This document shows, piece after piece, positions 1,806-20,465 of a DNA stretch of 20,465 nucleotides; positions within the stretch are counted from its first letter, which is position 1, and each line of letters opens with the position of its first letter. The notes beneath the pieces are model-generated. The model saw nothing but the letters and a program-made list of their open reading frames with translations, was not told the DNA's origin and searched no databases. The position numbers and the translations under genes are program-made. The DNA comes from a virus, in IMG/VR virus record IMGVR_UViG_3300020405_000037, positions 1-20,465 of that record; one strand, given 5' to 3'.

Positions 1806-2011
1806 TGATTATCTATGGACACCCTGTAACTAAACGAAAGGTATTGGAATGGATACTAGCACTTGTCGCAACGGCAGGTGTTGGTTTCCTTCTTGCCTTT
1901 GTAATCATCAACCTGTTGTTAGGTTGTGAGACATGGGATGAAAGTCTTTGGACTGAATACAACTCATGTCTAACCTTACAACACATTATAGAAGGAGTGA
2001 CTAATGACTAA
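1805..2011 (+). CDS. Small single-pass membrane protein (68 aa)
   Basis: A 68-residue protein beginning MIIYGHPVTKRKVLEWILAL. A basic N-terminal stretch (TKRK) is followed by a hydrophobic segment at about residues 15-40, then an acidic, cysteine-containing tail (GCETWDESLW). The charge pattern suggests the N-terminus stays in the cytoplasm and the tail is outside. Start ATG 1805 overlaps the previous stop (TAATG), a typical termination-reinitiation arrangement; a longer frame from ATG 1727 exists but overlaps the upstream micro-protein and has no good ribosome binding site. A holin or spanin part is conceivable but the early position argues against it. No family recognised. Confidence 0.7.
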   Translation: MIIYGHPVTKRKVLEWILALVATAGVGFLLAFVIINLLLGCETWDESLWTEYNSCLTLQHIIEGVTND

Positions 2012-2195
2012 GGCTACGTTGAAACTCTTTATGCTACGAGAGCATCAAGATGGAGTACCAGTAAGAGATAAGAATGGTGACATTATCTTTTACTCAGACA
2101 AGCAAGTCGCCAAGAAGAATAGGGTAGGCAAGCAAGTCGTATCCTATGGCTTTGACCATCGCAAGTATAACCATAACAGAAAGGAAGGTGCGTAA
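2004..2195 (+). CDS. Small basic hypothetical protein (63 aa)
   Basis: A 63-residue basic protein starting at ATG 2004, eight bases inside the end of the preceding gene, with GAAGGAG just upstream as ribosome binding site. It begins MTKATLKLFMLREHQDG and is rich in lysine and arginine, ending HNRKEGA. The segment GVPVRDKNGDIIFYSDK looks like a beta hairpin. It has no recognised motif. Its stop overlaps the start of the MoxR-type ATPase (TAATG at 2193-2197), so it is the first member of that coupled set and may work with it, which is inference from position only. Confidence 0.75.
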   Translation: MTKATLKLFMLREHQDGVPVRDKNGDIIFYSDKQVAKKNRVGKQVVSYGFDHRKYNHNRKEGA

Positions 2196-3187
2196 TGCGA
2201 GCAACATTGTTGAAGGAAACTATCAAGAACCTGTTCCCAATCAAGAGGACTATCTCTATCGAAGGTAGCCCGGGTGGAGGTAAGACAACCATCGTGCAAG
2301 AAGTTGCCAAGGAGTTGAGTGTCGGATACATCGAGAAGCATATGCCAACCATGTTGGTGGAGGACTTTGGTATCCTCTATCCGAATGGTGATGAGATGCT
2401 TCACTACAAGCTACCCGATTGGTTTCCATACGAGGGCAGGGATGACATACCCGATGAAGGTATCCTGTGTTTCGATGACAGAAACCAAGCGAGTGCAGAC
2501 TTGCAGAAGGTGTTGGCTAACATCTGTCAAGCTAGGAATTTACACGGCAAGCCAATGAAGAAAGGTTGGATGGTCGTGTCTACTGGTAACAGACAGTCGG
2601 ACAGAGCAGGTGCTAACAGAGTTCTATCTCACTTGCGTAATCGTGAGACTGTGTATGAACTTGAGACACACCTTGATGACTGGACATCATGGGCGATTGA
2701 CCACGGAGTGAAACCTGTTGTCATATCATTCATTCGATTCCGTACTGCTTTGCTACATGACTTTGATCCACAGAGAGATGTGAACCCATCTCCTCGTAGT
2801 TGGGTTGAGGGTGTTGCCAACATGATTGGTGTTGTACCACCCGAAGCAGAGTACGAGACATTCAAGGGTGCTGTTGGTGAAGGTTGTGCCGCTGAGTTCA
2901 GTGGCTTCTTGAAGATCGAACGGAAGCTACCTAACCCCGATACAATCATTCAGTCACCAATGACTGTGGCTGTACCCGATGACCCTGCTACTTGCTATGC
3001 ACTTACTGGTGCATTGGGTGAGAGAGCAACCACAGAAAACTTTGGGAACATCGTGAAGTTCGCTGAACGTATGTCACCCGAGTTCTCAGTGTTGTGTGTA
3101 TCGTATGCAAGTCGTAAGAATCCCGACCTTGCATCACATCAAGCGTTCACAGAGTGGGCGATTAAACATCAAGACGTTCTATTCTAA
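2195..3187 (+). CDS. MoxR-type AAA+ ATPase
   Basis: A 330-residue AAA+ ATPase. Walker A is GSPGGGKT at residues 24-31. Walker B is GILCFDD at 89-95, with Asp-Asp where Asp-Glu is usual. Sensor 1 is STGN at 129-132, and arginines in the RVLSHLRNR stretch (about 142-150) could include the arginine finger. The size and the lack of other domains fit the MoxR/CbbQ class, which works with VWA-domain partners to remodel protein complexes or insert metals. Here the partner is obvious: a VWA protein two genes downstream. Start ATG 2195 overlaps the previous stop. Such ATPases are widespread in phages but their targets are largely unknown. The DD Walker B may alter hydrolysis and is worth noting. Confidence 0.92.
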   Translation: MRATLLKETIKNLFPIKRTISIEGSPGGGKTTIVQEVAKELSVGYIEKHMPTMLVEDFGILYPNGDEMLHYKLPDWFPYEGRDDIPDEGILCFDDRNQASADLQKVLANICQARNLHGKPMKKGWMVVSTGNRQSDRAGANRVLSHLRNRETVYELETHLDDWTSWAIDHGVKPVVISFIRFRTALLHDFDPQRDVNPSPRSWVEGVANMIGVVPPEAEYETFKGAVGEGCAAEFSGFLKIERKLPNPDTIIQSPMTVAVPDDPATCYALTGALGERATTENFGNIVKFAERMSPEFSVLCVSYASRKNPDLASHQAFTEWAIKHQDVLF

Positions 3188-3197
3188 GGAGGTAACT

Positions 3198-4049
3198 ATG
3201 AAGTTGAGCGATAAAGCATTGCTAGTTCAGTTGAACATTTCTCAATGGACAGCAAGAAAATATGACAAGAAGGCTACCGAACAGGTAGCCCAACAGAATG
3301 CCAGTGCATTGACAGCAGGTAGATACAACAAGTCGTTGCTACCAATGAACGATGCTCTGACTAACATTCATCAGAAGTCTACCCTAATCCGTAAGAAGTT
3401 CTACACGAACACCTTACCTTGGGGTATCGAAGGTACGATGATGTTGCCATCAGCTAACTACCTAAACTTTATGACAGAGTTTAGGAAAGAGAAGTCTGAC
3501 TGGCAACAGCTTGTTGATACATTCTACCAAGAGTATCCAAGACTGCATGCAGATGCACAGAGATTCCTTGGTAACTTGTACAACAGGAATGATTATCCTG
3601 CTCTGCATGATATCCAACGTAAGTTCAAGATGGACATGGCTGTGTTTCCAGTACCATCCAATGACTTCCGTGTGAGTATCGGTGATGAAGAACTGGAGAG
3701 GATACAGCAAGACGTTGAGTCGAGAGTACAAGATGCGGCTCAACAAGCTATGCAAGAAGCTTGGCAGAGATTGTATGACCGAGTGAAACACATGGCTGAG
3801 AAACTTGCCGACCCAAAGTCTGTGTTCAGAGATACCTTGGTTGAGAATACCAAGGAAGTCTGTTCGATATTGAGTCGGTTGAACTTTGCTGATGACCCTA
3901 ACTTGGAGAACATGCGTCAACAAGTTGAGCAGTCATTGGCTAACAATCACCCAGAAAGTCTGCGTAATGACCCCGACCTCAGACGTACCAAGGCTGAGGA
4001 AGCGAAGGCAATCATGGACAAGATGGGTGCATTTATGGGAGGTAACTAA
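3198..4049 (+). CDS. DUF3150-like helical protein between MoxR and VWA genes
   Basis: A 283-residue protein starting at ATG 3198 behind AAGGAGGT; a longer in-frame extension to 3096 overlaps the ATPase and is unlikely. The N-terminus (MKLSDKALLVQLNISQWTAR) and the long helical region at about residues 160-215, rich in Q, E and R, are followed by LSRLNFADDPNLENMRQQVE and an alanine-rich end. This order, and the place between a MoxR ATPase and a VWA/metallopeptidase gene, resembles the DUF3150-type proteins found in the same setting in phages and proteobacteria; the family name is from memory and is tentative. It has no catalytic motif and probably acts as an adaptor or substrate-recognition part of the complex. 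The stop overlaps the next start (TAATG). Confidence 0.75.
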   Translation: MKLSDKALLVQLNISQWTARKYDKKATEQVAQQNASALTAGRYNKSLLPMNDALTNIHQKSTLIRKKFYTNTLPWGIEGTMMLPSANYLNFMTEFRKEKSDWQQLVDTFYQEYPRLHADAQRFLGNLYNRNDYPALHDIQRKFKMDMAVFPVPSNDFRVSIGDEELERIQQDVESRVQDAAQQAMQEAWQRLYDRVKHMAEKLADPKSVFRDTLVENTKEVCSILSRLNFADDPNLENMRQQVEQSLANNHPESLRNDPDLRRTKAEEAKAIMDKMGAFMGGN

Positions 4050-5179
4050 TGGACTTAGAAAGAAGAATCGCCAAGGCAAAGACGGCACTCATACTTGAGC
4101 ATCCGTTCTTTGGTAACTTGGCAATGAACATGCCCTTTGAATTATCAGAGGATGTTCCAACAGCGGCTACCAATGGTAGCCGTGTGTTGTTTAACCCTAG
4201 CTTTTGTGAGCCATTGAAAGACGATGAACTGTTGTTCCTCGTTGCTCACGAAGTTTGTCACCCAATGCTTGAGCATATCTTTCGATTGAATGGTCGTGAT
4301 CCAAAGCGTTGGAACTATGCAGGTGATGCTGTCATCAATCCAATGCTTGAAGATGAGGGCATCGGTAAGTTCATCGAAGGTGGTGTCATGGACAGAGACT
4401 TGCTTCAGCGAGGTGGTGGTACTACCGATGGTGTCTACAACTTGTTGCCACCAATGCCCGAAGATGGTGATGGTGGGTATGGTGACGGAATGAAACCATA
4501 CGATGACATCGAAGATGCAGGGGAGGGTTCTTCCCCTGCTGAGATTGAGCAGAAGAAAGCAGAGTGGAAAGTCAAGGTTGCTCAAGCGGCTCAGTCTGCA
4601 AAGATGATGGGCAAACTATCAGCAGGACTTGAACGATTCGTTGGTGAGTTGATGAAACCACGAGTGAATTGGAAAGATGTCATGCAGAGGTTTCTTGTCA
4701 AGCAACGTACTGACACGAGGACTTGGGCAAGACCAAACAGGAGGTTCTTGTCACAAGGTATGTATCTACCGAGCGTATCGGGTGAAGCACTAGGTGAACT
4801 ATGCTTTGCTATCGACACATCGGGTTCGATTGGTGAGGATGAACTCAATCAGTTTGCGAGTGAGATTATCAAAGTTTACCAAGACTTATCGCCTAAGAAG
4901 ATACATGTCATCTACTTTGATTCTGTTGTCTGTCACTATGACTGCTTTGAAGATGATGAGCCAGTAATCAAACCACATGGTGGTGGAGGTACTGCGTTCA
5001 GTCCTATCTTCAGATTCATGCAGGACAAGGACATTGATCCTGTTGCCTGTGTCGTACTTACTGACCTGTGTTGTGACGACTTTGGTGATGAACCTGCGTA
5101 TCCAGTTCTATGGGTATCCAACATGAAAGGCGATGCACCTTGGGGTGAAATTGTCTACATGGAGGGTGTCAATGACTAG
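4049..5179 (+). CDS. VWA-domain protein with HExxH metallopeptidase-like N-terminus (DUF2201-like)
   Basis: A 376-residue two-domain protein. The N-terminal part contains HEVCH (residues 67-71), an HExxH zinc site, followed by WNYAGDAVIN (88-97), where D93 could be a further ligand; this matches the putative metallopeptidase domain placed before VWA domains in DUF2201-type proteins. A charged, glycine-rich linker (about 120-170) leads to a VWA-like domain with a complete MIDAS: DTSGS at 256-260, T315 in GGGGT and D339 in LTD. VWA domains bind partners through a metal ion and pair with MoxR ATPases, as here. The HExxH is intact, so proteolysis is possible, but not shown. Start ATG 4049 is coupled to the preceding stop. 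Confidence 0.92.
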   Translation: MDLERRIAKAKTALILEHPFFGNLAMNMPFELSEDVPTAATNGSRVLFNPSFCEPLKDDELLFLVAHEVCHPMLEHIFRLNGRDPKRWNYAGDAVINPMLEDEGIGKFIEGGVMDRDLLQRGGGTTDGVYNLLPPMPEDGDGGYGDGMKPYDDIEDAGEGSSPAEIEQKKAEWKVKVAQAAQSAKMMGKLSAGLERFVGELMKPRVNWKDVMQRFLVKQRTDTRTWARPNRRFLSQGMYLPSVSGEALGELCFAIDTSGSIGEDELNQFASEIIKVYQDLSPKKIHVIYFDSVVCHYDCFEDDEPVIKPHGGGGTAFSPIFRFMQDKDIDPVACVVLTDLCCDDFGDEPAYPVLWVSNMKGDAPWGEIVYMEGVND

Positions 5180-5369
5180 GCAACTCAACACCGAACAAGA
5201 CATCGAAGAAGTGTTTGAGTACGCAAGTAAGGAGATACTCAACGGCTATATGTTTATGCACAAAGCCAATGGGTATCTCTACTTCAAGCACACAGTAACA
5301 AGAGGGTACATCGAAATACCCGATAAAGAAATAGCTTATCCACAAGGAGGTAACAATGGGAGAAGTTAA
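5172..5369 (+). CDS. Small hypothetical protein (65 aa)
   Basis: A 65-residue protein from ATG 5172, overlapping the end of the VWA gene by eight bases; GGAGGG at 5161-5166 is the ribosome binding site, which rules out the longer frame from 5133. It begins MTRQLNTEQDIEEVFEYASK, probably a helix, then alternates aromatic and polar residues (YMFMHKANGYLYFKH), probably beta strands. The last residues, GGNNGRS, are encoded by the Shine-Dalgarno of the next gene, so they are unlikely to be functionally constrained. I do not recognise the family. The tight coupling places it in the same translation unit as the MoxR/VWA module. Confidence 0.75.
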   Translation: MTRQLNTEQDIEEVFEYASKEILNGYMFMHKANGYLYFKHTVTRGYIEIPDKEIAYPQGGNNGRS

Positions 5370-5541
5370 GAAACTGCTCATAGAAGCAGAGTCTATGTTG
5401 GTCACATGCCTAGATGATTATGGCATGACCAACGACCAAGCGTTTGAGAAGATACGCAAGGAACTAGGTACTATGGCAGAAGAACATGTCCGTAGTTTAA
5501 TTAACAAATGGAACGAGGAGGATAGCACATGGCGACAGTAA
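5356..5541 (+). CDS. Small hypothetical helical protein (61 aa)
   Basis: A 61-residue, mostly helical and acidic protein starting at ATG 5356 behind AAGGAGGTAACA. It begins MGEVKKLLIEAESMLVTCL and contains two predicted helices (about 3-20 and 26-55). It overlaps the previous gene by 14 bases and the next by 13. No catalytic or binding motif is visible. Its composition would suit a small adaptor or dimerising protein, but this is only a guess from its shape. Confidence 0.75.
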   Translation: MGEVKKLLIEAESMLVTCLDDYGMTNDQAFEKIRKELGTMAEEHVRSLINKWNEEDSTWRQ

Positions 5542-6221
5542 GATTCAGCCAACAACTGCAAGACGATATTGTTCGTAATGCAGAGAGAATGTTTGATGAC
5601 AGTCTCAAAAAAGCAAGAGAGAACTACCCAAAAGACTGGGGTAAGAAACTGTATGACAGTTTGTTCTCAGCAGATATCCAAGCAAAGATGAATGCTTTGC
5701 CTACTGGATTCTTTGGTAAGATTGAAAGCCTATCACTTACAGGGTTCAGAAATGCACCCGAAGATGTATGGCAGACAGCACATACCAAGGTGGAAACATG
5801 GAAACGAGTAGACTTACGTCTGCAACTACCAAGTCCATTACCATTCCCACCACAGAAAGAGTGGCAGAACGCAGGGGATAGTGGGTACTACATGGACTAC
5901 TCAAGGTATGAGATTGATTTCCACAACGAGAAGTTTGAGTGGTTACATGAACCATTCAAGAAGTATACCCAAGGTATCTTCAATGCAGAAGCTAAGAAAG
6001 ATGAGTTTGTAGCAGGGGTCAAACAGATTGTGACTACCTATACAACACTAGCACCTGCATTGAAAGCATGGCAACCATTGTGGGATTTACTACCCGATGA
6101 TGCCAAGGAACGTCACAAGAAAATTACTGAGAAGCCTAAGCCAAAGACAGCACAAGATATTGGTGTGGACTTAAACAGTATGACGGCTCAAGTAACATTC
6201 AACAAACTAACAAGAAAGTGA
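5529..6221 (+). CDS. Hypothetical phage protein (230 aa)
   Basis: A 230-residue soluble protein from ATG 5529 behind GGAGG. The N-terminal helix (RFSQQLQDDIVRNAERMFDD) leads to ADIQAKMNALPTGFFGKIES, then a proline-rich stretch LPSPLPFPPQKEW near residue 100, a tyrosine- and aspartate-rich middle, and a basic end (KKITEKPKPKTAQ). The layout of an N-terminal basic helix followed by a MNALP-GFF motif reminds me of the Nmad5-type proteins linked to phage nucleotide modification, but I cannot confirm this and no modification genes are seen nearby. It is coupled to its neighbours and probably belongs to the same early module. Function unknown. Confidence 0.82.
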   Translation: MATVRFSQQLQDDIVRNAERMFDDSLKKARENYPKDWGKKLYDSLFSADIQAKMNALPTGFFGKIESLSLTGFRNAPEDVWQTAHTKVETWKRVDLRLQLPSPLPFPPQKEWQNAGDSGYYMDYSRYEIDFHNEKFEWLHEPFKKYTQGIFNAEAKKDEFVAGVKQIVTTYTTLAPALKAWQPLWDLLPDDAKERHKKITEKPKPKTAQDIGVDLNSMTAQVTFNKLTRK

Positions 6222-6228
6222 GGTAACT

Positions 6229-7347
6229 ATGCAAGAGTTTGGAAAACAACAACTTATCGAGTACATCCAAGAACAGATGACCGATAATAATCTAAGAGGT
6301 AGCTACGCAAATGATACTAATGGTGGTCGTAGGTTGGATACCTATGACCAGTTTGCCAAGGAGTTTGCAAGATGTCGTGACCACAGTAAAGGTCGTAAGA
6401 TATCGGCAAGCTTCAGACTGTTCAAGCATGACTCAGTACAACAAGGTGTCACATCTTATGTCGTCAATCTTGAGGGGTACGGCAGTCAACCATTCATGCG
6501 TATAACACCTGACAACATAGTGGAGTTTATTGCACCACCACAAGCAGTATGGCAACACTCACAGTCTATCGTGTCATCATCGTATCGTTGGATACCATTC
6601 CTGTTTGAGCGACACAAGAAAGGTTTGTATCGTGTAACACATACAATGAAACATGATACAGACTTCTGCACAAGACTTACTCAATGGTATCAGAACAAGT
6701 TGCATGAAGCTAAAATGTTATCTGATGATGTAAGTGAAGCGTTGTGTAATGACATGAGGTCTGCCACTTACATGTCACAATGGCGATTGAACAGCGAGAT
6801 GATGAGAGAAGCACCTGCTTACTTTCAAGGTATCAAGTTCAACATCATTACTGGCGAGTGTCTCAATCGTAGACCCGATGATAAGTTCGTTGAGAAACCT
6901 GCTGAACGTAAGATATGGCGACAAGCACTAGCCAAGTTCAAGCGTGGTATCAAAGCAAGGGCAAAGGTTCGTGCCTTTGATCCATTGATTGAGAAAGTGT
7001 GGGCAGAGCGACAGTCTCAGAACCGATACCATTGGAAGCAACCCGATTGGTCTAGTCAACCTTGGCTTGACTTGCTTGAGAAATCAATACGAGACAACGA
7101 GTTCCCACACGAACTGTTGATAGGCTTCTGTTCTACACCACCAAGTGGGTACTACCAACAATCCAAGCCTACAAGCAAGGAAGTATTTGATGGTGTTCAC
7201 AAGATACTGAACGACATGTCAGTCGAATTGCGTAGACGATTCAATGTCTTTGAGAAAGAAGGACATGATGAGAAGCGTGAGGAGAAGTACAAGTATACCT
7301 ATTACGGAAAGAATACACTAACAATAGAGGAAGCGAGGAAACTATGA
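6229..7347 (+). CDS. Hypothetical phage protein (372 aa)
   Basis: A 372-residue soluble protein starting at ATG 6229, seven bases after the previous stop, with GAGGTAAC as ribosome binding site. It is basic, rich in W, Y, R and K, and has no signal peptide or membrane segment. The middle contains PAERKIWRQALAKFKRGIKA, a basic helix that could touch nucleic acid, and the C-terminal part contains TPPSGYYQQSKPTSKEVFD. The end is strongly charged (EKEGHDEKREEKYKY). I find no Walker, nuclease or zinc motif. Its stop overlaps the start of the Ntn hydrolase by ATGA, so the two are translationally coupled. Function unknown; a regulatory or nucleic-acid-binding role is only suggested by composition. 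Confidence 0.85.
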   Translation: MQEFGKQQLIEYIQEQMTDNNLRGSYANDTNGGRRLDTYDQFAKEFARCRDHSKGRKISASFRLFKHDSVQQGVTSYVVNLEGYGSQPFMRITPDNIVEFIAPPQAVWQHSQSIVSSSYRWIPFLFERHKKGLYRVTHTMKHDTDFCTRLTQWYQNKLHEAKMLSDDVSEALCNDMRSATYMSQWRLNSEMMREAPAYFQGIKFNIITGECLNRRPDDKFVEKPAERKIWRQALAKFKRGIKARAKVRAFDPLIEKVWAERQSQNRYHWKQPDWSSQPWLDLLEKSIRDNEFPHELLIGFCSTPPSGYYQQSKPTSKEVFDGVHKILNDMSVELRRRFNVFEKEGHDEKREEKYKYTYYGKNTLTIEEARKL

Positions 7348-7802
7348 CAGTAATAGCATGGGATGGAAAGACCCTTGCTACTGACAGAATGGCTAACGAT
7401 GGCTCTCAGAAATGGGAGTCATCAAAGGCTTGGTATGGCATGAGCAAGGAGAAAGAAGTAGTAATCATTACAGGTGTTGGACTAGCATCCTACATTAGAG
7501 AACTATCGGAATGGTATCAGCAAGGTATGGAGGGTGATGTACCCCTACAAAAACCCGGCATGGCACAACTTATTGTGGTGAAGAAAGACGGACTGTATGA
7601 ACTATCATACAAGATGTTGATACCAAGGACGACACCCTACTCTGCGTTTGGAGATGGGAAGGAGATAGCACTTGGTGCGTTGGCAATGGGTGCTACTGCA
7701 AGTCAAGCTGTAAACATTTGTAACGAACACTCTTTACAATGTGGTAAAGGTGTGGAATTATTCACTTTACACGGAGGTAACGATGAGCAGAAAGAATGCT
7801 AA
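7344..7802 (+). CDS. Proteasome beta-subunit-like Ntn hydrolase
   Basis: A 152-residue protein with the layout of a proteasome/HslV beta subunit. It starts MTVIAWDGKTLATDR, so removal of Met would expose Thr2 as the N-terminal nucleophile; Asp14 and Lys28 fall where the catalytic Asp and Lys are expected. Later, AFGDGKEIALGALAMGATAS followed by AVNICNEHSLQCG matches the helix-bearing half of the fold. Such short stand-alone Ntn proteins are known in phages and bacteria but their substrates are unclear. No AAA unfoldase lies directly beside it, although the MoxR-type ATPase is about 4 kb upstream. Start ATG 7344 overlaps the preceding stop (ATGA). The C-terminal HGGNDEQKEC is read from the next gene's ribosome binding site and start region. 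Confidence 0.88.
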   Translation: MTVIAWDGKTLATDRMANDGSQKWESSKAWYGMSKEKEVVIITGVGLASYIRELSEWYQQGMEGDVPLQKPGMAQLIVVKKDGLYELSYKMLIPRTTPYSAFGDGKEIALGALAMGATASQAVNICNEHSLQCGKGVELFTLHGGNDEQKEC

Positions 7803-17951: not shown

Positions 17952-20465
17952 CTATTTTAGGTCATCTATACCGTAAATCTCTAGTAATTCATCAATCGTG
18001 GGTCGAGATTGTTTGGGTGCAAACTTTCTAAATCTGTTTACACTGTTCTTCCTAGCAGACTTATAGGACTTGTTAGCAGACTGTGTGAAGTTCTTAAAAT
18101 AAAACTCCGAGTCTCTACCTACATCTTTGTTCCACTCACGAACAAAGTTAAGTATCCTTCTCATCTCACCTCTATTGTTTTCTATCCTTGCTTTGACATA
18201 TGCTTGACGATAGTGCGCTTTCAAATCCTGCACATAAGCATTAGTTTGTTTGGACATACGAATGATATCATTTTGAACAGTGGCGGCATATGGATAGAAA
18301 CCTAACAACCTACCTACAATAGCTAGAGTGCCGACTTCATTTGATATGACAGTACCATCTGCTCTAGTAATTTTTCCGTCATCAATGTAAGCCATACCAT
18401 CAAACAAACCTCTGATAGCAGATGATGGTACATCTCTTAGTATATCATTAAAGCGTGTCGTTCCATCTTTCAGGCCCACAGTCTCTGCACCATACCTGAC
18501 AAGTTGTGCTCCTGTGCCCATCAATCCTGTGATACCACTAAACACTGGGCCTGCAAAGTTCTTAGCTTCTTGCCAATGTTCTCCTGCATTTGATTTTGCT
18601 TTGAACATACCAGTCAATGGAATCAAATCACCAAAGCCAAGTCTTGTAGAAACTGTCGCTCCAAAGTATGGGTCAATAATCCCTCGCATGAAGATCGGTG
18701 ACGCCCCGGGGATAAACCCATCAACAAGCCGTGCAGCTTCTTCCTCTACGCTTTTCATTCTAATACCAAACTTCTGAGCAAGAGTATCAATCAAGTCCAT
18801 CAAGTCGTCAGCAAATGGTAGTCCTTTCATACCCGAGAGTATGAACAACATACCCAACATAGCAAGTCTACCTTTGGGTGACATACCTTTCATCAACTGC
18901 ACACTGACAATGACGAACTGCTTATACATGAAAATATATTGTGCTATGTTTCCTCTAGCCATCTCCGGCCTGTTATACATAGCGTATTCACCTTGCGATG
19001 TATTCACTGCTTTCGTAGCAAACTCCAACGCAGCATCTCGCACTGCGATCTGGTCTTCCACCGGAAGGTTATCGAAATTAGTTCCGTATCTTTGATCTGA
19101 TAGGATTCGTTCTCGCTCTAGTCTATAAGAAGCAAGGAAAGTAGAACGTCTGTTAAGTTGTTCTGTATATGAGAACATAGACATCCATGCTTTGATTGCA
19201 CCATTATAACTATTGCTAGCCCTACCACCTCTTGATGTACCAACAAGTGCATTAAACTGTGCAGCCTGTAACACACCAGCGCCTGTAGCATCTAGTATAG
19301 CGTTAGCTTCATCTTGAGATAGATTGTGTTTGTCTTGTAATGTTTGGCTTTCTACCACTTGCAGCATGTAATCATAGTTAGCTAGCTGAGCATTCTTTAC
19401 ATCAACTGCAGCTTTAGTCATTGCGGCAGCAGATTGACCTAGACCAAAGCCACCACCATAACCACGGTTTGGATTATAACTACCAAGATATGGTATGGTG
19501 TGAGTAACCATAGACATCATGTTGATTGCGGCAGTAGCAAAAGAACCACCGAGCTGTAGTAGTACAGCATATAGTTTTAACCTAGAGCCAACCTCACCAG
19601 ATAAAAGGTCTTCTGTTGAGTCTTGAAGGTTTGCTGCATCTGCGTAGAACTGTAATAGTTTCTTAGCTTCTTCTCTGTAATCTTCACCACGACCTTCATT
19701 TGGTATGGCGTTACCATCTCTATCTTTAGCTTGTACAGCACCTTGGTCAGCCATGTGGCTATACTGATATGCGTAAGCATCGTATGCTTTTCTAGCTGCT
19801 TCTCTTTGTGCTTCTGTGCCTTGTGTTGTGGCTTCTTCAAGTTTTGCTAGCTTAGCAGGATCACCTCTAAACTTAGCATTATCAGCCATAATATCATTTA
19901 GCTGCCATGAGTAAGTAACTTTACCTGCAACATGTGCTTGTGTTTCTAAGTGTTCTGCAACACTTCTGACAACATCTCTATCCCAGCCGGGGTTGCCTGA
20001 TCTTTGCAGACTTCTTCGTGCAGTAGATTGAACACTGGTAAGTGCTGTGATAATACGCTGTCGTTCTTGAGGTGTAAGACCAATTTCTAAACGCTGAACC
20101 ACACTCATAAACTCTGTAAGATTCATAGAGTTAGTTAGTGGTTGTGATTGTCTAGCCTTAGATACCTGAGCTTGGAATCGTATGTTACGAGTCTGCCCAT
20201 CGGTATCTCTCATTTGGTAGGTTATAGGATTAGCACCATCTGCTACAATATCCTGTAGTCCTGCTGCTATGTCCTGTGCATCTGTTTCACGTTCAGCTTG
20301 GAAGAATGGTATAGAACCAGCATAAGTTTCTTCTAGGCTTACTGCCTCACCTGTAGCTGCATCATATGCCTGCATACGAACTTGCCACTTACCTCGTCTG
20401 GTAAATGGTACATACCCTGTAACAAGTGTACGTCTTGCATTGAAGTCCGCGTTAAGAGAACGTTG
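17952..20465 (-). CDS. C-terminal part of a very large internal virion or ejection protein (partial)
   Basis: A minus-strand frame of about 837 codons that stays open to the window edge: upstream of the first in-window Met (codon at 20375-20373) the frame continues with 30 sense codons (ending TRRGKWQVR before that Met), so the start lies outside. The protein is helical and rich in A, Q and R. It has hydrophobic stretches (for example MLGMLFILSGMKGLPF and LLQLGGSFATAAINMMS) and the block RGNIAQYIFMYKQFVIVSVQ. These features match the C-terminal region of giant phage proteins annotated as PLxRFG-domain or large polyvalent proteins, which are thought to be packaged and ejected with DNA. The stop is at 17952-17954. 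It opens the structural arm. Confidence 0.85.
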   Translation of the reverse strand, partial: QRSLNADFNARRTLVTGYVPFTRRGKWQVRMQAYDAATGEAVSLEETYAGSIPFFQAERETDAQDIAAGLQDIVADGANPITYQMRDTDGQTRNIRFQAQVSKARQSQPLTNSMNLTEFMSVVQRLEIGLTPQERQRIITALTSVQSTARRSLQRSGNPGWDRDVVRSVAEHLETQAHVAGKVTYSWQLNDIMADNAKFRGDPAKLAKLEEATTQGTEAQREAARKAYDAYAYQYSHMADQGAVQAKDRDGNAIPNEGRGEDYREEAKKLLQFYADAANLQDSTEDLLSGEVGSRLKLYAVLLQLGGSFATAAINMMSMVTHTIPYLGSYNPNRGYGGGFGLGQSAAAMTKAAVDVKNAQLANYDYMLQVVESQTLQDKHNLSQDEANAILDATGAGVLQAAQFNALVGTSRGGRASNSYNGAIKAWMSMFSYTEQLNRRSTFLASYRLERERILSDQRYGTNFDNLPVEDQIAVRDAALEFATKAVNTSQGEYAMYNRPEMARGNIAQYIFMYKQFVIVSVQLMKGMSPKGRLAMLGMLFILSGMKGLPFADDLMDLIDTLAQKFGIRMKSVEEEAARLVDGFIPGASPIFMRGIIDPYFGATVSTRLGFGDLIPLTGMFKAKSNAGEHWQEAKNFAGPVFSGITGLMGTGAQLVRYGAETVGLKDGTTRFNDILRDVPSSAIRGLFDGMAYIDDGKITRADGTVISNEVGTLAIVGRLLGFYPYAATVQNDIIRMSKQTNAYVQDLKAHYRQAYVKARIENNRGEMRRILNFVREWNKDVGRDSEFYFKNFTQSANKSYKSARKNSVNRFRKFAPKQSRPTIDELLEIYGIDDLK

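Follow-up and report, generated by a model that had tools for sequence, protein, structure and literature searches.

What does a phage-encoded AAA+ ATPase act upon when its gene is closely coupled to genes for a mainly helical protein and for a protein fusing a zincin-like metallopeptidase domain to a von Willebrand factor A (VWA) domain? The question is raised by an IMG/VR virus record (IMGVR_UViG_3300020405_000037), of which a stretch of 20,465 nucleotides was analysed (hereafter the window), and which had been predicted to carry a compact block of these three genes (hereafter the trio). The block is borne out by the ORFs and by their tight or overlapping junctions (Table 1): the small gene s63 and the AAA+ gene overlap by 1 nt, as do the DUF3150-like and the zincin/VWA genes. 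The preferred start of the DUF3150-like gene, at 3198, is preceded by AAGGAGG; a longer GTG start at 3096 also stands in the ORF list. The block does not end at 5541, as had been proposed, since coupled genes run on: M overlaps s61 by 13 nt, and g372 starts 7 nt past the end of M and is followed by a further overlapping ORF. The gene set is conserved and carried by a group of podovirus-like phages.

Table 1 Features of the coupled gene block (positions within the window)
Feature	Position	Strand	Basis or remark
s63, small basic protein, 63 aa	2004–2195	+	ORF; just 5' of the ATPase gene
AAA+ ATPase, MoxR/Midasin-like, 330 aa	2195–3187	+	phrog_1297, profile matches, conserved residues
DUF3150-like protein, mainly helical, 283 aa	3198–4049	+	PF11348 matches in relatives
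Zincin-like metallopeptidase domain + VWA fusion, 376 aa, DUF2201	4049–5179	+	PF13203, PF09967
s65, lineage-specific small protein	5172–5369	+	ORF; 8-nt overlap with zincin/VWA gene
s61, lineage-specific small protein	5356–5541	+	ORF; 14-nt overlap with s65
M, Nmad5-like, 230 aa	5529–6221	+	HMM match; PF18757 matches in relatives
g372, conserved, no family assigned	6229–7347	+	after M in window lineage (78/82 loci)
Further ORF of the coupled block	7344–7802		4-nt overlap with g372

The AAA+ protein matches phrog_1297 (1.2e-68) and, in profile comparison, is closest to Midasin (2.8e-31), with CobS (8e-6) and CbbQ (1.6e-5) further down. Since its score against Pfam AAA_5 (PF07728) is below the cut-off (20.9 versus 22 bits; E 3.8e-4), it is designated MoxR-like only. 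Walker A (GSPGGGKT), Walker B (FDD), N132 (sensor 1), R150 and R201 are present, R150 and R201 being read by us as the probable Arg finger and sensor 2, respectively; G29, K30, N132, R150 and R201 are invariant where covered among 168 distinct AAA proteins. The zincin/VWA protein scores above cut-off with Pfam families PF13203 (putative metallopeptidase; 1e-44, 153.7 bits) and PF09967 (VWA-like; 3e-23, 82.7 bits). In profile comparison its zincin part yields weak matches to minigluzincins (0.0012) and M48 peptidases (0.1), while the VWA part matches VWA/I-domains. The predicted combination of an HExxH motif with an intact MIDAS is indeed present, as HEVCHxxxxH (H67, E68, H71, H76) with D93 and N97, and as the DTSGS motif (D256, S258, S260) with T315 and D339. 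Both sites are near-invariant, and the lack of conservation that the original prediction had named as evidence against itself was looked for and not encountered: H67, E68, H71, D256, S258 and S260 are kept in 201 of 205 distinct homologues, T315 in 198 and D339 in 196, the remainder being gaps save for one H76N and one D339V. Matches to the AAA and the VWA protein of the window were found in 678 and 560 phage records, respectively, duplicates included in both counts. PHROGs labels the zincin-VWA family as HNH endonuclease, a name also borne by many phage records; this mislabel is corrected here.

The Glu of a zincin HExxH motif serves in catalysis and not in metal binding. Its invariance (Glu68 in 201/201 covered homologues) makes it very improbable that the module is an ordinary conserved chaperone with a catalytically idle, solely structural zincin. 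In favour of that reading, the ATPase of the window lineage has Asp at the Walker B position usually held by the catalytic Glu, a hint that this enzyme can do without strict catalysis. The zincin domain is, as far as motifs tell, a probable protease head.

In the window lineage, Walker B is DD in all 81 resolved proteins (8 unresolved), and hydrolysis may be slowed or stopped there. Other lineages comprise 54 DE, 18 DD, 2 EE and 5 unresolved. A strict pairing of Walker B Asp with the DUF3150-like gene was ruled out: among the 168 AAA proteins, DD occurs with the gene in 97 cases and without it in 2, DE with it in 18 and without it in 36 (EE, 2; unresolved, 13). Glu and Asp were apparently exchanged more than once, with at least 8 changes in either direction counted on a quick FastTree reconstruction, a weak tree with long branches.

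The third protein of the trio scores below the cut-off of PF11348 (DUF3150; E 0.0014, 18.5 versus 24.9 bits), whereas 30 of 64 relatives match this family (E ≤ 0.05; best 6e-9); it is therefore termed DUF3150-like only. Its AF2 model (pLDDT 90.8) found nothing among PDB folds at E 0.001, and VIA returned helix bundles (best Z 9.2 over 95 residues, rmsd 3.1). The gene is present in 146 of 205 distinct loci, a set seeded with the window and two VWA alignments (best 80 per scan) and not an unbiased census. Across these loci the trio occurs in the orders AAA/DUF3150-like/VWA, DUF3150-like/AAA/VWA and AAA/VWA/DUF3150-like; N4-type AAA/VWA pairs occur without the DUF3150-like gene. PF11348 was also run against five records of plasmids and phages without a match (0/5), and no mention of DUF3150 was found in the open-licence literature.

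Downstream, M is matched (1.9e-14) by an HMM built from 11 ORFs sited between the AAA and VWA genes in other phages. M itself does not match PF18757 (Nmad5), while 43 of 70 relatives do (E ≤ 0.05; best 7e-20), and it is for this reason called Nmad5-like only; M is regarded as a divergent relative of Nmad5, a nucleotide-modification-associated protein. Its AF2 model (pLDDT 91.3) matches five viral models at E ≤ 0.001, none of them named Nmad5, resembles named Nmad5 proteins weakly (E 0.007–0.15, TM 0.30–0.51), and found nothing among PDB folds at E 0.001 (VIA: Z 4.0, 133 residues, rmsd 9.2); for neither model do these fold comparisons count against any fold. M is encoded in 133 of the 205 loci, between the AAA and VWA genes in some clades and 3' of the VWA gene in others. 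The idea of an obligate partner was rejected, since beyond the main clades neither Nmad5 nor M was found in any of 14 records (0/14, in searches run without a positive control), namely N4, phage G, six further large phages, two 77–78 kb phages, the Planktothrix phage and three plasmids.

The phage version of the module had been thought to have no established target. This holds insofar as no experimentally assigned target was found in the open-licence literature, and nothing on N4 gp24/gp25 was found in the CRISPRi-ART paper; the phage version as such, however, is already described. The AAA/VWA pair corresponds to N4 gp24/gp25, listed as core in N4-like phages (PMC4193335, Table 3; PMC7650795, Table 2). 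As in the window, the pair of N4 (Schitoviridae; phrog_1297/phrog_1314) consists of an AAA+ and a zincin-VWA protein with the same key residues; in contrast, N4 has Glu in Walker B, its VWA protein is 28 % identical, no DUF3150-like gene lies in the N4 stretch examined, nor is an Nmad5-like one present in its record. Group 2.2 jumbo phages share the domain fusion and the MoxR partner, but their account in PMC7824862 describes no third or fourth gene and proposes a virion role. The MoxR-vWA ternary conflict systems of the VMAP/iSTAND type (PMC7159879) likewise combine MoxR and vWA with a third conserved gene; in the window the third gene matches DUF3150 (by Pfam scan only) and is seen mainly on phages and plasmids, and the VMAP/iSTAND third component is absent from the Pfam matches listed for the block. 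On the IncA plasmid pRA1, MoxR-type AAA, DUF3150 and VWA proteins are also encoded near one another, in the order AAA, hypothetical, bet, exo, DUF3150 and CobT-VWA; it differs by the three interposed genes, by a CobT-like VWA protein and by a DUF3150 profile that fails to align directly with that of the window (hhalign, probability 1.7 %). NorQ/NorD, CbbQ/CbbO, RavA/ViaA and Midasin share the AAA+ ring with a VWA-MIDAS partner, and none of them is known to be associated with a zincin head, DUF3150 or an Nmad5 partner. Not found described before are the DUF3150-like gene, the Nmad5-like neighbour, the occurrence on plasmids and bacterial contigs, and the position on the replication strand.

MoxR/VWA pairs are able to insert metals (PMC13036017, PMC9976466), and the IncA counterpart is CobT-like (PF06213), its N-terminal stretch aligning over the HExxH region with a probability of only 22 %. 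A CobS/CobT- or NorQ/NorD-like inserter of metal or cofactor, in which the HExxH metal would serve delivery or structure without peptide cutting, with a metal-dependent enzyme of DNA modification as client, is nonetheless unlikely: the HExxH region lies within a Pfam putative metallopeptidase domain and shows the above weak resemblance to peptidases, and by reading only, no CobN-like large chelatase subunit was recognized among the ORFs of the window or of a 53.9-kb phage relative.

Among 99 IMG/VR contigs fetched with the VWA and DUF3150-like proteins of the window (111 loci, 12 of them duplicates), the full trio is present in 88, which exceeds chance; of the remaining 11, ten start partway through it and L036 has the AAA and VWA genes only. 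Beyond phages, the DUF3150-like protein was found in 44 plasmid records, mostly of Burkholderiales (16 typed conjugative, 20 non-mobilizable), and in seven bacterial contigs, one of which has, judged by reading, conjugation and ParB genes as neighbours. In the two conjugative plasmids examined, the zincin-VWA gene follows the DUF3150-like gene and an AAA gene is near. This distribution on mobile DNA is drawn from sampled phages, plasmids and DUF3150-bearing contigs; Streptomyces relatives are noted in the N4 record, so that the spread need not be confined to mobile elements.

These occurrences bear on virion maturation, one of the originally suggested functions, in which AAA/VWA would fold and the zincin process a structural protein. 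Such a role has been proposed for jumbo phages, the analogy being drawn to ATV, a virus of archaea (PMC7824862), and Xanthomonas phage XaC1 has genes annotated as structural a short distance (a few genes) 5' of the pair (RaK2 has a similar order with hypothetical neighbours). Conjugative plasmids, however, make no virion, the 53.9-kb relative has the block on its replication strand, divergent from the terminase-to-tail genes (genes named by reading), and N4 gp24/gp25 are classed as middle genes (PMC4193335). In view of the plasmid-borne trio and of gene position, a virion role is not favoured and appears improbable. Nothing was found that points to host RNA polymerase, another of the suggested targets.

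That the module occurs on both phages and plasmids would also suit host takeover or anti-defence, with the machine dismantling a host complex, of defence or restriction, that DNA encounters on entry. A mutation in nmad5 is reported to let phages escape the Tmn defence system, though deletion of the gene gave no escape in the same study (PMC11846954), and a gene annotated as anti-CRISPR AcrVA2 follows the module in a Planktothrix phage, a label not borne out by Pfam or PDB searches (no match at E 1 in either for the AcrVA2-labelled protein of locus L115). Moreover, unlike patchy anti-defence genes, the trio is near-universal in the window lineage and the pair is listed as core in Schitoviridae (PMC7650795), and we regard this function as rather unlikely. 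As a control for shared ancestry, 28 of 75 newly fetched loci contained a related polymerase and 7 kb upstream of it; 27 of the 28 carry trio genes (26 all three), so that the trio is not separable from the backbone, and M is present in 26 of 27. M and the trio may simply be inherited together with the replication block.

From the gene set and its coupling, residue conservation, the several gene orders, the plasmid occurrence and the location in a replication block, we tentatively favour a remodelling machine of the MoxR/VWA type, borne on mobile DNA and probably bearing a protease head, that would act on a DNA-associated complex during replication. By analogy with Midasin and with NorQD, the mechanism of which is of the MoxR/VWA type (PMC9976466, PMC13036017), the AAA+ protein would form a ring on which the VWA part docks, the MIDAS metal would grip an acidic residue of the target, and ATP-driven motion of the ring would pull or twist it. 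The N-terminal zincin might then clip an exposed segment, as its motifs suggest, or hold it via the metal. In the window lineage and many others, gene neighbourhood suggests the DUF3150-like protein as a third subunit, with a role as adaptor or scaffold the simplest option, and M as the likeliest local client or partner; with M as client, the target would lie on phage DNA (a modification or replication complex) and not in the virion. More doubtful is a fuller version, namely a four-part ATP-driven metalloprotease machine, its trio also present on conjugative plasmids and in mobile regions of bacteria, which would process or assemble DNA-bound modification or replication complexes with the slow, switch-like motor suggested by the exchange of Walker B Glu for Asp. 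If true, a protease-remodeller of this kind would for the first time be linked to the DNA of mobile elements instead of to virions.

Pairs of the N4 gp24/gp25 type belong to the core genes of a large family of phages, yet the literature search retrieved no target for them. The pair is often part of a three- or four-part module, which is also plasmid-borne and accompanied by a DNA-modification-associated protein in several lineages; the plasmid occurrence and this travelling protein make DNA, and no longer the capsid, the place where the machine likely acts. The module opens direct and cheap tests of mechanism.

The genes remaining with the trio in the window lineage are M (80/82 loci) and g372, not s65 and s61. 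No Pfam or PHROG match was obtained for g372 at E 0.01, and its relative in locus L085 is likewise without Pfam match; kinship to AcrVA2 was rejected, the g372 model missing the AcrVA2-labelled L115 protein even at E 10. The suggestion that the flanking small proteins are specificity factors fared unevenly when their co-occurrence was checked. As general factors, s65 (no Pfam or PHROG family) and s61 (a single weak PHROG match, 0.005, to a family without assigned function) are ruled out, being lineage-specific and found within 900 bp in 12 and 30 of 102 testable window-lineage loci, respectively. The gene at 2004 does better, s63 lying directly 5' of the AAA gene in 64 of the 80 loci of this lineage that could be tested.

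Nine genes (2004–7802) of the window record, a phage fragment of 20,465 bases representing a complete IMG/VR entry, are each joined to the next by an overlap or a short gap (see table). Towards the 3' side follow genes for a family A DNA polymerase, a PD-(D/E)XK nuclease, an SNF2-type helicase, a T7-type SSB and a DUF927 protein. In a related phage contig of 53,928 bases, the AAA+, DUF3150-like and zincin-VWA genes (the trio; A, D and V) share one strand with the replication genes. The opposite strand carries the terminase, portal, capsid and tail genes, identified by inspection of the ORFs, so that the module falls in the replication rather than the structural unit. The HslV-like (Ntn-hydrolase) peptidase carries Thr directly after the start Met and is a second peptidase within the coupled block. 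A convergent 807-aa ORF near the record end may encode a portion of a large structural protein, as in the 53.9-kb relative.

Coordinates of the window genes and of features in homologous loci (distance to the next gene in nt, overlaps negative)
Feature	Locus	Position	Distance	Remark
s63, small gene	window	2004-2195	-1	
A, AAA+ ATPase	window	2195-3187	10	
Walker B Asp-Asp (not Asp-Glu)	window	2474-2479		AAA residues 94-95
D, DUF3150-like	window	3198-4049	-1	
V, zincin-VWA	window	4049-5179	-8	
s65, small gene	window	5172-5369	-14	
s61, small gene	window	5356-5541	-13	
M, Nmad5-like	window	5529-6221	7	
g372	window	6229-7347	-4	
HslV-like peptidase	window	7344-7802		phrog_1040, 2.6e-23
807-aa ORF	window	17952-20375 (-)		
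Split AAA gene	L127	1719-3604		phage pYD6-A
AcrVA2-annotated gene	L115	14048-15088		Planktothrix phage Pag-Yong1
Upstream Nmad5 gene	L256	1036-1635		
Upstream Nmad5 gene	L274	736-1338		canonical by Pfam
Plasmid set	L119	4829-12294		pRA1 (IncA)

By Pfam, V encodes a complete DUF2201 protein (zincin-VWA). The part of its profile with HExxH weakly matches minigluzincins (4qhf, 0.0012) and M48 peptidases (0.1), and the other part VWA/I-domains. Its family, phrog_1314, is named HNH endonuclease in PHROGs, a label repeated in many phage records; nothing among the Pfam matches supports this name, which is apparently a copied misannotation. Midasin is nearest to the AAA+ profile (2.8e-31), with CobS and CbbQ lower down. 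The window's third protein falls below the DUF3150 family cut-off by itself, but hits to the family came from 30 of 64 relatives (E ≤0.05, best 6e-9), identifying it by sequence as a remote DUF3150 relative.

Conservation was counted over covered positions in 205 distinct VWA proteins obtained from 279 loci plus the window. H67, E68, H71, D93, N97, D256, S258 and S260 are each retained in 201/201, T315 in 198/198, H76 in 200/201 (N in L145) and D339 in 196/197 (V in L226). One locus (L068, record G005) has a single in-frame TAA within the VWA match. Among 168 distinct AAA proteins, Walker A, sensor 1, R150 and R201 are invariant at covered positions, and the Walker B Glu is replaced by Asp in 99. 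Within the window lineage (112 distinct loci, VWA identity at least 50 %), every one of the 81 resolved members has this Asp, as do 18 of the 74 resolved outside it, L196 and L208 included. The DUF3150-like gene is in view for 97 of the 99 Asp loci; 18 loci retain Glu despite this gene, and a weakly supported 78-locus tree requires at least eight changes of state.

Over the distinct loci, some of them cut by contig ends, gene orders were ADV (123), AV (40), V (18), DV (9), DAV (7), AVD (6), VD (1) and A'V (1); that the genes are reordered yet still close argues for a working set. Loci without D frequently hold an additional ORF between A and V, and a model built from 11 such ORFs only matches the window M gene at 1.9e-14, uniting them in one family, M, present in 133/205 distinct loci summed over architectures. 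A quick tree with weak support and long branches gave six changes for D presence, five each for M presence and order, and two for M position. Pfam Nmad5 is matched by 43 of 70 M proteins (E ≤0.05). The predicted M structure (pLDDT 91.3) found no PDB fold match at E 0.001 and five matches at that level in a viral structure library, none named Nmad5; library proteins named Nmad5 or nucleotide-modification-associated matched more weakly (E 0.007 to 0.15). L256 and L274 carry an Nmad5 gene 5' of the trio plus a divergent M on the 3' side. PMC11846954 describes Nmad5 as a predicted DNA-modification enzyme whose gene seemed toxic on cloning, and reports that phages escape Tmn defence through one change in nmad5, whereas gene deletion gives no escape.

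Within window-lineage loci having sufficient flanking DNA, D was found in 82/82 (tallied for loci with an identified AAA), M in 80/82, g372 in 78/82 and the HslV-like gene downstream in 38/64. The three small genes had been suggested as possible specificity factors; regular co-occurrence with the trio was seen for s63 (64/80) and not for s65 (12/102) or s61 (30/102). As a control, 75 contigs with a related polymerase were newly fetched, 28 with 7 kb upstream. Of these 28, 26 bear the complete trio and one bears trio genes with AAA out of view; M accompanies 26 of these 27, and the sole trio-less contig is also without M. Trio, M and polymerase are thus co-inherited in this lineage, and the association of M with the trio is confounded with its association with the replication block.

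Such gene pairs have precedents. N4 gp24/gp25 are core genes of N4-like phages with unknown function (PMC4193335, PMC7650795, PMC2784036), the DUF2201 domain is listed in an N4-like phage (PMC5735904), and a MoxR plus metallopeptidase-vWA pair occurs in group 2.2 jumbo phages (PMC7824862); no mention of DUF3150 was found in the open-licence literature searched. The original prediction of an under-described module holds in that it is real, strongly conserved and under-described; it is, however, not new in kind, since the AAA+/zincin-VWA pair is known in phages, and represents a three- to four-part variant thereof. For the jumbo-phage pair, virion assembly with peptide processing was proposed, with an archaeal virus as analogy (PMC7824862). 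The presence of trio genes on conjugative plasmids argues against this as a general role: 44 plasmid records, mainly of Burkholderiales (16 typed conjugative, 8 mobilizable, 20 non-mobilizable), encode the DUF3150-like protein. In the two plasmids inspected, both conjugative, V directly follows D; A adjoins them in pMSMB608, and the Simplicispira plasmid has A ~3.6 kb upstream.

Beyond the observed gene set, coupling, residue conservation, location and spread, the module probably works like a MoxR/VWA remodeller, by analogy with NorQ/NorD, where a VWA finger inserts into the AAA pore and MIDAS is implicated in target binding (PMC9976466, PMC13036017). From family knowledge, the AAA+ ring would hold the VWA partner, with MIDAS binding the target; the zincin, judged from its motifs, would cut or grip this target, and catalysis is favoured on balance. 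By neighbourhood, the DUF3150-like protein may belong to the module as a subunit, with the Nmad5-like protein as its partner or client, the latter pointing to work on phage DNA during replication. The mechanism as a whole, remodelling on phage DNA during replication, is proposed tentatively.

The survey outside phages was made with the DUF3150-like protein; Streptomyces relatives are noted in the N4 record. Seven bacterial contigs, including Dechloromonas, Rhodocyclus, Paraflavitalea and Tannerella, encode the DUF3150-like protein; some of these could be phage or otherwise mobile DNA. A parallel three-part set lies beside recombination genes on plasmid pRA1, where a MoxR-type AAA and a hypothetical gene precede bet and exo, and the DUF3150 and CobT-like VWA genes come after them; direct profile comparison did not confirm homology of its DUF3150 with the phage DUF3150-like protein. 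Two genes after the zincin-VWA gene of L115 lies a gene annotated as anti-CRISPR AcrVA2, the product of which had no Pfam or PDB match. In L127, the AAA gene is annotated as two joined pieces around another ORF, possibly an intron with a homing endonuclease.
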